DNA of 27,739 bases, taken from the IMG/VR virus record IMGVR_UViG_3300030104_000399, positions 1 through 27,739 of that record; one strand, written 5' to 3'. The notes under the pieces are model-generated. The model saw nothing but the letters and a program-made list of their open reading frames with translations, was not told the DNA's origin and made no database searches. This document shows, in pieces, positions 8,577 to 18,455 of this stretch. Every line of letters starts with the position of its first letter. Position 1 is the stretch's first letter. Source of the stretch: a virus. Position numbers and translations under genes: made by a program.

Positions 8577-8591
8577 ATTTAAAGCAAATAC

Positions 8592-8621
8592 GCACCAAAT
8601 CTAAACAATTTATATTTACTA
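8592..8621 (+). promoter_or_regulatory. Copy 2 of the bipartite promoter-like motif, before the tail operon
   Basis: GCACCAAA at 8592-8599, an 11-base spacer, then TATATTTACTA at 8611-8621. It ends 19 bases before the ATG of the tail chaperone, in one of the few real gaps between genes. The same boxes with the same spacing occur at 18401 and 21168. It probably starts the tail-gene transcript. Confidence 0.6.
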
Positions 8622-8640
8622 ATAGATAACTTAAAAGAAA

Positions 8641-15658: not shown

Positions 15659-17361
15659 TATTAAAGTTACAAGCCGAAGTAGGAAATGCTACTAAACAGC
15701 TTGAAGAGGTTAAAAAAGGTGTTGAGGGTATAGGCAAAAGCACAGATGGTGCAGAAAAAGGCATTAAAGGAATGGCTAAAGGCATCAAAGGTGTTGGTTT
15801 AGCTATTAAGGCAGCAGGTATAGGTTTGCTATTAAAAGGGTTGCAGTTGCTTGGTGATGCTTTTATGAAAAATCAAAAGGTAACAAATCTTTTTAACACA
15901 GTATTTACAGCACTTTCCAGGACATTAAATGATTTTGTAAATTTTTTAGTAAACAATACAGGCACAGTAATAGATATATTTAAAGATATATTTGAAAACC
16001 CACAAGAAAATTTAAAAGCATTAGGTAAAGCTATAAAAGATAACATAATAGAACGCTTTAATAGTGCAATAGATGCGTTAGGTTTTTTAGCAGATGCGTT
16101 TAAAAAGGTATTTGAAGGTGATTTTAAAGGTGCGTTAGAAAGTGCAAAAGAAGCAGGTAAAGAATATGTAGATGTATTAACAGGTGTTGATGGCACAGTT
16201 GATAAGGTAGTAGAAACTACTAAAAAAGTAGTTGAAGCAACTAAAGAATATGCAGTTAATACATATAATGCAGCAGCAGCACAAATACAATTAAACAATG
16301 CAGCACAAATATCAGCAGCACAGCTAACAGGACTTGTAGAAGAAAATGATAGATTAGCAGAAACGCAAAGGCAAATACGAGATAACGAAAATGCTTCATT
16401 TGAAGAAAGGATTGCAGCAAATAATAAGCTAAAAGAAATACTAGAAAAACAGAAAGAAGATATGTTGGCATTAGCTGACATAAATATTGCAGCAGCACAA
16501 GCCGAATTAGATGCTTTAGATAATACAGAGAACAGGGTAGCACTACAAGATGCTATAAACGAGAAGAAAGGTATAGAGGCACAGATTACAGGGTTTATGT
16601 CAGAGCAAATGACTAACGCTGTATCGCTAGAAAATGAAAGGTTAGAGGTTGTAAATAGTGTCAACGCAGAAATGATGACTGCTAGACAAAGGGAGATTGA
16701 GGATGTAAGGCTGCATTACCAAGAGCAAATCAAACTTGCTAAAAAAGCAGGTATGGATACTGTTGGTTTAGAAAAACAAAAATCCGAAGCGTTAAGAAAA
16801 ATAAAATCAGCACAATTACAAGCTGACCTAGATGCAACAGCAGGAATGTTAAGTAGTGCAGCAGCATTACAAAAAGAAGGAACAGCAGGTTGGAAAGCCA
16901 CAAAAATTGCAGAAACAGTAGTAAGCACATATAGTGGTGCACAGAAAGCATACGAGAGTATGGTTGGTATACCTATCATAGGACCGACACTAGGTGCAAT
17001 CGCAGCAGGTATAGCAGTAGTAGCAGGTTTAAAACAAGTTCAAACAATTAGAAATACACCGATACCTGAAATGGCTATGGGTGGTATAGTAGGTGGTTAT
17101 GGTAGTGGCACTAGCGATAGCGTTAATGCAAGATTAAGCAGGGGTGAAAGCGTTATCAATGCAAAGTCAACAAGGATGTTTAAACCACTTTTAAGCAACA
17201 TAAATCAAGCAGGTGGTGGAGTTGGGTTCGCAGATGGTGGAACGCTTGATACAGGAAGTGCAGGTATGACTACAGGAGTTGTTAAAGCGTATGTAGTTGC
17301 TGATGAAATGACAAATGAACAAGATAGATTAAATAATATTAGAAGAAAAGCATCATTATAA
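15640..17361 (+). CDS. Tail tape measure protein
   Basis: The 573-aa protein has the usual tape measure build. It starts with a helical, Lys/Glu-rich coiled coil (KLQAEVGNATKQLEEVKKGV). Hydrophobic Gly/Ala-rich segments lie near residues 50-72 (GVGLAIKAAGIGLLLKGLQL) and 445-470 (IPIIGPTLGAIAAGIAVVAG). Coiled coils (ENDRLAETQRQIRDNENASF) fill about 230-400, and a Gly-rich C-terminus (AMGGIVGGYGSGTSD) is typical of the family. It sets tail length; by the usual 1.5 angstrom per residue the tail would be roughly 85 nm. It is the largest helical protein in the block. Confidence 0.85.
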   Translation: MAQEEVILKLQAEVGNATKQLEEVKKGVEGIGKSTDGAEKGIKGMAKGIKGVGLAIKAAGIGLLLKGLQLLGDAFMKNQKVTNLFNTVFTALSRTLNDFVNFLVNNTGTVIDIFKDIFENPQENLKALGKAIKDNIIERFNSAIDALGFLADAFKKVFEGDFKGALESAKEAGKEYVDVLTGVDGTVDKVVETTKKVVEATKEYAVNTYNAAAAQIQLNNAAQISAAQLTGLVEENDRLAETQRQIRDNENASFEERIAANNKLKEILEKQKEDMLALADINIAAAQAELDALDNTENRVALQDAINEKKGIEAQITGFMSEQMTNAVSLENERLEVVNSVNAEMMTARQREIEDVRLHYQEQIKLAKKAGMDTVGLEKQKSEALRKIKSAQLQADLDATAGMLSSAAALQKEGTAGWKATKIAETVVSTYSGAQKAYESMVGIPIIGPTLGAIAAGIAVVAGLKQVQTIRNTPIPEMAMGGIVGGYGSGTSDSVNARLSRGESVINAKSTRMFKPLLSNINQAGGGVGFADGGTLDTGSAGMTTGVVKAYVVADEMTNEQDRLNNIRRKASL

Positions 17362-18101
17362 TGGAAAAGAAAACAACAAAAATCGTAGAATTAGTTATAG
17401 ATGAAAGTAACGAAGAATTGGCTATTGACGCAATATCTCTTGTTACTGAACCTGCCATAGCACAGGACTTCGTCTATTTTAACAAAACAAAACATAACCT
17501 AACATTAGCAAAGGTAGATGAGGAACAAAGGTTGCTTGTATCACCTGCACTAATACCTAACAAGCAGATATATCGTTTTGACGCAGATACTAACCAAGAA
17601 TACTATGTATACTTCACTGCTGAAACAGTAAAAAAAGCTAGTGAAATGTATTTGAAGCATAACAACAATAATAATGCGACTGTGCAACACGAAAACAAAG
17701 TTACAGGCGTGCATACTGTAGAAAGTTGGATTATACAAGATGCTGAAATGGACAAATCAAGATTATATGGTTTTGATTTACCTAAAGGCACGTGGATGGT
17801 GAGTATGAAAATAGAAAACCAAGAAATAATAGATAGAATAAAAGAGGGTGAATTAAAAGGATTGTCTATTGAGGGTTATTTTATTGACCGCATGCAGAAA
17901 ATGAGCAAATTTGAAAAAGTAGGCGATATAGATGGTATGCCTGTTTTTGATACAGTAGAAGAAGCAGAGGCAGTAGCTAAAGAAATGGGTTGCGAAGGAT
18001 ATCACGAACACGAACTGAATGGAAAGACTGTGTATATGCCTTGTTCAGACCACGATATTATTTCAGCATTAGACGAAATACTAAAAAAAAAAGTAAACTA
18101 G
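17361..18101 (+). CDS. XkdF-like prohead serine protease, short form
   Basis: The 246-aa product matches the XkdF phage serine protease pattern: LVSPALIPNKQIYRF near 59-73, H110 in TVQHENKV, VESWIIQDAEMDKS, PKGTWMVSMKIENQEIIDRI and S169 in GLSIEGYF. H110 and S169 are the likely catalytic pair. It would trim the scaffold and capsid during head maturation, and it lies next to those genes. The reading frame ends in A10 followed by GTAAACTAG. An intact second domain continues in the -1 frame, so a longer fused form is probably made as well. Confidence 0.75.
   Translation: MEKKTTKIVELVIDESNEELAIDAISLVTEPAIAQDFVYFNKTKHNLTLAKVDEEQRLLVSPALIPNKQIYRFDADTNQEYYVYFTAETVKKASEMYLKHNNNNNATVQHENKVTGVHTVESWIIQDAEMDKSRLYGFDLPKGTWMVSMKIENQEIIDRIKEGELKGLSIEGYFIDRMQKMSKFEKVGDIDGMPVFDTVEEAEAVAKEMGCEGYHEHELNGKTVYMPCSDHDIISALDEILKKKVN
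18083..18092 (+). other. A10 slippery tract joining the protease to its -1 frame domain
   Basis: Ten A's read ctA-AAA-AAA-AAA-gta in the protease frame, giving the perfect slippery heptamer A-AAA-AAA in phase, three codons before the TAG at 18099-18101. A -1 shift leads into SKLESYTDYPQG. RNA polymerase slippage on A10 could also produce the fused message. Confidence 0.65.
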
Positions 18102-18400
18102 AAAGTTATACTGATTACCCACAGGGTGCTACTAACAACGCAAAAAGAGCAATAAAATGGAAGGAGGAAAATGGAAGTAGCTGTGGAACACGTGTGGGTT
18201 GGACAAGAGCTAACCAAATTGCAAATAGAAAACCTATATCACGAGACACTATTGCAAGAATGGCTAGTTTCAAAAGACACCAACAACACAAAGATGTGCC
18301 ATACTCCGAAGGTTGTGGAGGAATTATGTGGGACGCGTGGGGAGGAAGTTCAGGAATCAATTGGGCGATAAGCAAACTGAAAGAAATTGATGGCGAATAA
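18092..18400 (+). CDS. -1 frame C-terminal domain of the XkdF-like protease
   Basis: About 102 residues carry a compact domain: YPQGATNNAKRAIKWKEENG, then CGTRVGWTRANQIANRKPIS, RDTIARMASFKRHQQHK and GGIMWDAWGGSSGINWAISK. I know this domain as a C-terminal part of phage head proteins. In this frame the only start before the domain is a TTG at 17990 inside the protease gene, which yields an Arg-rich nonsense leader; the first ATG (at about 18261) would cut the domain in half. It is therefore probably expressed only as a fusion of about 346 aa through the A10 tract. Its function is unknown. Confidence 0.65.
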   Translation, partial: SKLESYTDYPQGATNNAKRAIKWKEENGSSCGTRVGWTRANQIANRKPISRDTIARMASFKRHQQHKDVPYSEGCGGIMWDAWGGSSGINWAISKLKEIDGE

Positions 18401-18430
18401 GTAACAAAACAAAACATATTATATTTACTA
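18401..18430 (+). promoter_or_regulatory. Copy 3 of the bipartite promoter-like motif, before the head operon
   Basis: GTAACAAA at 18401-18408, an 11-base spacer and TATATTTACTA at 18420-18430. It begins directly after the stop of the protease fusion and ends 25 bases before the ATG at 18456. It probably gives extra transcription of the scaffold and major capsid genes, which are needed in large amounts. Confidence 0.65.
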
Positions 18431-18455
18431 ATAAACACACCTAAATCTTACCGAG

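Follow-up and report, generated by a model that had tools for sequence, protein, structure and literature searches.

Organization of the protease locus

In a marine phage record of 30,043 bases and 34% GC that carries a tailed-phage morphogenesis module, we have analysed one stretch of 27,739 nucleotides (hereafter the window), in which an XkdF-like head protease ORF ends directly downstream of a run of ten A's (Table 1). The protease scores 66.9 bits against the PF14550 profile (cut-off 24). In an alignment with 56 relatives H110 is invariant and G167, S169 and G172 are conserved at 90% or above; by analogy with related head proteases, H110 and the serine of the GxSxG-type motif are candidate catalytic residues of the predicted enzyme.

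Table 1. Features of the protease locus, numbered from the first base of the window
Feature	Position	Strand	Basis or remark
XkdF-like head protease ORF; its default product is the short form of 246 aa, end ...LKKKVN*	17361..18101	+	Pfam PF14550, E 2.1e-18; PHROG head maturation protease matches
Peptidase_S78_2 domain, residues 48-172	17502..17876	+	Pfam
DUF3721 module, residues 196-231	17946..18053	+	Pfam; located in the portal in related phages
A10, putative slip tract; the frames would be joined by one A added to the mRNA or by a -1 shift of the ribosome	18083..18092	+	sequence; run census in relatives; twin contig
TAG stop of the short form, overlapping CTA-GAA (Leu-Glu), the first codons of the domain in the -1 frame	18099..18101	+	
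C-terminal five-helix domain, 100 aa plus TAA stop (18398-18400), -1 frame, predicted to be read only after slippage	18098..18400	+	

The XkdF-like protease of Nonlabens phage P12024L, also a PF14550 member, is homologous to that of the window (37% identity over residues 24-224); unlike in the window, a tblastn search of the Nonlabens records retrieved no copy of the C-terminal domain. Comparison by DNA with a phage collection gave no match to the window, and a check for isolates and prophages among 84,980 genomes, made with the A-run pattern and with the fused protein of the relative L002, retrieved no relative and hence neither a host nor an isolate-quality sequence.

The protease gene ends with ATA CTA AAA AAA AAA GTA AAC TAG, the stop being the third codon past the run, and a heptamer A_AAA_AAA of the slippery form X_XXY_YYZ stands in phase with the protease frame at 18083-18089. 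It is followed, in the -1 frame relative to the protease, by a domain that extends from LESYTDYPQGATNNAKRAIKW to GINWAISKLKEIDGE (coding 18098-18397). With one added A, the predicted long product would count 244 + S,K + 100 = 346 aa, its predicted junction peptide being LKKK-SKLESYTDYPQ, with the stretch ILKKKSKLESYTDYPQ spanning the joint. The window has no other A/T homopolymer of 10, and its two T9 runs both lie inside intact ORFs. A near-twin contig (L001) carries the same A10; it aligns with the window at 99.85% identity across 10,064 bases, with 15 mismatches and 0 gaps.

The initial annotation is thus borne out as regards the stop three codons past an A10 with an in-phase A-AAA-AAA, and its product sizes of 246 and about 346 aa agree with our arithmetic. 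The domain frame was said to have no usable start; it holds no ATG or GTG, while two TTG codons exist upstream. The onset of the domain, placed there about ten residues past the slip point, has to be corrected, as the conserved domain begins 2 residues past it.

An AT-rich motif, similar to AACAAAACATATTATATTTACTA, is present in the window as two copies of 80% identity (18393-18433 and 8584-8624), adjoining the 3′ side of the protease gene and another gene. It is reminiscent of a promoter-like element repeated between the genes of relatives.

The junction in related phages

Scanning the whole of IMG/VR for runs of at least A8 that lie no more than 27 nt from the domain yielded 78 loci. Run lengths at these junctions peak at A10 (A8:10, A9:11, A10:41, A11:16), whereas those of runs elsewhere in the same loci decay (A8:103, A9:36, A10:14, A11:1). 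Including A7 added about 29 further loci, none of them split. Both scans were chosen for a run and cannot give its frequency; in a sample collected by the domain only, A9 or longer was present in 5 of 119 loci. Since A10 is unique in the window and A9-A11 is enriched at the junction across relatives, the coincidence of run and frame junction goes beyond chance.

Grouping at 95% identity resulted in 46 clusters, of which 27 are fused in frame, 13 are split, 2 are mixed and 4 are truncated at contig ends, so that about two thirds of the A-run lineages are fused with the run kept and about one third are split. Every split lineage requires a -1 shift, except strain L223 (A9), which is out by one more base than its strain set. 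All splits have A9 or longer and none is found at A7 or A8 junctions; L189 and L233 are listed as A8, but an A11 sits just upstream.

The closest protease relatives in IMG/VR have the same C-terminal domain, mostly in one frame. L002 is fused with A9 (protease 83% and domain 93% identical to the window), L006, L010, L012, L038, L084 and L107 are fused with A10, and a run is absent from the fused L121 and L125; the near twin L001 as well as L003, L005, L007 and L011 are split, each requiring -1, with A9 to A11. Hence both arrangements that the initial annotation had envisaged for relatives, the two parts in one frame or a retained slip site, are seen. In the tree, A9 or longer is present in 16 of the 19 rows of the window clade, split and fused states being intermixed, and over the whole tree the well-supported branches force at least seven split/fused changes among A-run lineages. 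Lineages without a run are all fused, L325 excepted.

Concerning other homopolymers in the same loci, 10 runs are read through intact, and the 4 frame-break candidates lie on the opposite strand in spurious-looking ORFs. In L182, L204 and L214 a second in-frame A10 (...GKCVKKKSSYAEVGPRGG...) is located about 534 nt past the domain start, at the next module boundary of the fused gene; coding A10 runs besides those at the junction are few in these loci.

A mobile helical domain under purifying selection

The AlphaFold2 model of the domain (pLDDT 95.9) is all-helical, with five helices, and is not an Ig-like beta-sandwich. The domain matches no Pfam family and falls into PHROG 2859, where its function is unassigned. 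The best hit among PDB sequences had an E of 0.52, and structure comparison returned nothing below E 1.2 with Foldseek and a best Z of 3.2 with VIA-align, giving no fold assignment.

The genes in which it occurs mark the domain as a mobile head module, shared by protease, portal, capsid protein and stand-alone genes. It forms the C-terminus of XkdF proteases, in other XkdF proteases (L166 with A9, L229 with A10) it is inserted close to the N-terminus, and portal-like proteins also carry it as an insert (L186 with A10, L206 with A11; as for L385 below, the portal assignment is a sequence resemblance judged by eye). Moreover, cyano-, roseo- and haloviruses have it in proteins whose annotation reads capsid, portal or prohead protease. 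Domain-bearing records have a single close copy each, and in many relatives a stand-alone domain gene lies elsewhere in the genome. Records with the stand-alone domain possess an XkdF protease without DUF3721 and C-terminal modules, and there DUF3721 occurs in a protein of 570-730 aa; the one such protein that was inspected, in L385, resembles the portal of the window.

That portal-like protein (L385:854-2854, record G011) bears the DUF3721 module placed in the protease in the window, which points to a swapping of small modules between portal and protease. The stand-alone domain of L331 (record G012) is 98% identical to that of the window, its protease only 68%, and this domain appears to be a recent module transfer. 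In L387 / L009 (3001-3735) a protease with DUF3721 has neither a run nor a copy of the domain anywhere in the 30-kb record; from this case, the short form alone seems viable.

The domain is under strong purifying selection in split lineages, its dN/dS being mostly below 0.1, in the main 0.03-0.08 (0.027-0.046 among L001/L003/L005/L007), and highest, at about 0.25, in pairs with L201. It is therefore very probably translated and used there.

Polymerase slippage as the favoured explanation

We propose that RNA-polymerase slippage on the A10 run yields the 246-aa and 346-aa products from one gene, a reading whose probability we put a little above even. By standard decoding, the gene would give the 246-aa protease (S78_2 + DUF3721), ending three codons past A10. 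If the RNA polymerase slips on the ten A's, a fraction of the mRNAs would carry an extra A (A11), or A8 by the loss of two, and on such mRNAs the ribosome would enter the conserved five-helix domain and complete the 346-aa long form. In fused relatives the same run would work in the reverse sense, slippage producing a minority of short forms; split or fused, the phage would obtain the protease both with and without the domain. The domain itself may be a low-copy accessory, brought into the prohead by whichever head protein bears it, a passenger role that is our guess from the company it keeps. We infer from the sequences that slippage occurs and that the polymerase rather than the ribosome slips, and the ratio of the forms and the role of the domain are proposed in the same sense.

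The initial claim of one gene with two products is supported comparatively, because relatives are fused, A9-A11 is retained where they are split, and purifying selection acts on the domain. The ribosomal -1 frameshifting proposed with it is not the best supported mechanism, slippage having been allowed as its alternative. An A run of about 9 or more lies at the frame junction and is kept in relatives, as is typical of transcriptional slippage. Polymerase slippage is favoured because splits need at least nine A's and occur only at pure runs, because fused relatives keep the run, and because no RNA structure or Shine-Dalgarno-like stimulator stands out. In fact, the downstream RNA folds of the window, L003 and L005 have z values of -1.2 to 0.6 against shuffles (stems only), so that no structured -1 stimulator was found in these three, and no GGAG-like element was seen in 18041-18082. 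One E. coli study reports that slippage of the bacterial polymerase is weaker on A runs than on T runs (PMC6260861), which counts against our reading. Many relatives have no long run (102 fused loci have less than A8) and L009 has the short form only; therefore, not every phage needs both forms.

Perhaps the domain takes the poly-A junction along with it, the two forming a portable recoding cassette: at each place of attachment (protease C-terminus, protease insert or portal), A9-A11 at the front edge would make the attachment partial, and only some copies of the head protein would bring the domain into the head. We offer this as a tentative and rather doubtful extension of polymerase slippage.

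Alternative explanations

Programmed -1 ribosomal frameshifting on A_AAA_AAA or A_AAA_AAG would give the same products from unaltered transcripts. The slippery heptamer is in phase in the window and split loci are almost all -1, as this would require; the E. coli dnaX site is A_AAA_AAG, and phage coat proteins are known to be extended by -1 shifts (PMC5009743). Yet a 7-nt site would suffice for the ribosome, whereas splits are restricted to pure runs of 9-11, the stems are no better than shuffles and the run is also retained where no shift is needed, in fused relatives. It is the chief rival as to mechanism. As the sole mechanism we consider it unlikely; a ribosomal shift may act alongside polymerase slippage.

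It could also be hypothesized that the frame drifts neutrally, the long A runs lying at a Lys-rich linker or a module seam at which indels are tolerated because unavoidable slippage restores enough of the full-length product, with a functionless short form. Frequent split/fused flips inside the A-run clades are what such drift would produce, broken endosymbiont genes are rescued by long A runs (PMC5009743), and the run also marks the domain edge in unrelated partners (the portals of L186 and L206), like a recombination seam. In addition, L179 (A10/fused) and L232 (A9/split) share 99.96% identity across 6.75 kb and differ by 2 mismatches and one gap; they look like one phage, whose variation in run length could be either a natural polymorphism or a technical error.

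Codon usage speaks against such drift. AAA makes up 78% of Lys codons in the contigs holding these loci, and outside this gene Lys-Lys-Lys is pure AAA AAA AAA in only 2/31 cases, far below expectation (binomial p 6e-7). At the junction it is pure in 12 of 15 loci, which were found via the protease or the domain and not via the run (Fisher p 9e-7 against the triplets outside this gene; p 0.013, a weaker excess, against codon usage alone); as strains share descent these p-values overstate the effect, the direction being clear. The contrast persists through divergence that saturates synonymous sites, and the run lengths peak at 10 instead of decaying. Nine-A Lys runs thus appear to be avoided elsewhere yet maintained at the junction, a signal that favours use of the two forms, and we regard neutral drift as unlikely.

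A homopolymer sequencing or assembly error, hiding a genome that is truly A11 with an intact fused gene, is very improbable. The contigs do come from metagenomes, errors are common at homopolymers of 10, relatives often have the two parts in one frame, and L011/L232 differ by one A from L010/L179. Nevertheless, split A10 is kept in separate strain sets (L195/L213/L215/L220, L165/L177/L190/L226 and L188/L201/L209) without any A11 member, with a DNA divergence inside the three sets of mostly 1-6% and up to about 11% in one, which rules out sequencing error as a general cause and largely refutes it for the replicate sets. The twin of the window, with its 15 mismatches, has the identical A10, and the T9 runs of the window sit in intact ORFs.

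Translation of the domain alone, from an internal or re-initiation start, has hardly any probability left. In its favour, stand-alone genes with their own ATG exist, in L325, a relative of two split lineages, the domain is an overlapping ORF whose own ATG overlaps the protease stop, and in the window TTG occurs in the domain frame at 36 and at 19 codons ahead of the domain. The window, however, is one of only two among 24 split loci with any such codon; in the other 22 no ATG, GTG or TTG lies between the domain and the nearest preceding stop in its frame, which rules such a start out there, and in several split loci a stop shuts that frame at the run itself. Because of these 22 loci, the stand-alone copies, which the initial annotation would have counted against a joint product, indicate mobility of the domain and do not refute slippage.

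Comparison with known systems and implications

Polymerase slippage of this kind has precedents. The tssM gene has A11 and is split in Citrobacter rodentium, has A9 and is in frame in Yersinia pseudotuberculosis, and gives two length forms in both, those of C. rodentium having been demonstrated to arise by polymerase slippage (PMC4256274). Our locus resembles it in the A run before a premature stop, in having split and in-frame relatives and in the expected forms with and without a C-terminal domain. Unlike tssM, a bacterial type VI secretion gene with experimental proof, we deal with a phage head protease and a mobile helical domain, on comparative evidence only. In Thermus thermophilus dnaX slippage takes place on nine A's (PMC5009743), and likewise an in-frame long form and a slippage-made short form would be expected in the fused A9-A11 relatives; dnaX encodes a replicase subunit, whereas here both polarities of the arrangement occur within one family. 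The coat proteins of T7, T3 and Lactobacillus phage A2 have frameshift-made C-terminal extensions with Ig-like domains (PMC5009743). The likeness lies in a promiscuous domain that only some copies of a head protein receive, via a frame change at its end; those are ribosomal shifts in coat proteins with mostly Ig-like beta domains, while here the domain is all-helical, the carrier a head protease and the site a pure A run. Our literature search retrieved no paper joining a head or prohead protease with frameshifting. The kind of slippage is already known and the setting is new: a head protease, a mobile domain and many natural split/fused replicates.

The unannotated helical head domain, which belongs to no Pfam family, is hereby described as moving among protease, portal, capsid and stand-alone genes. 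In about a third of the A-run lineages gene callers truncate the protease and miss this domain. The natural split and in-frame replicates offer a comparative system for when long homopolymers are selected and when they are tolerated. If polymerase slippage on the A10 run holds true, uncultured marine phages would make their head-maturation protease in two lengths.
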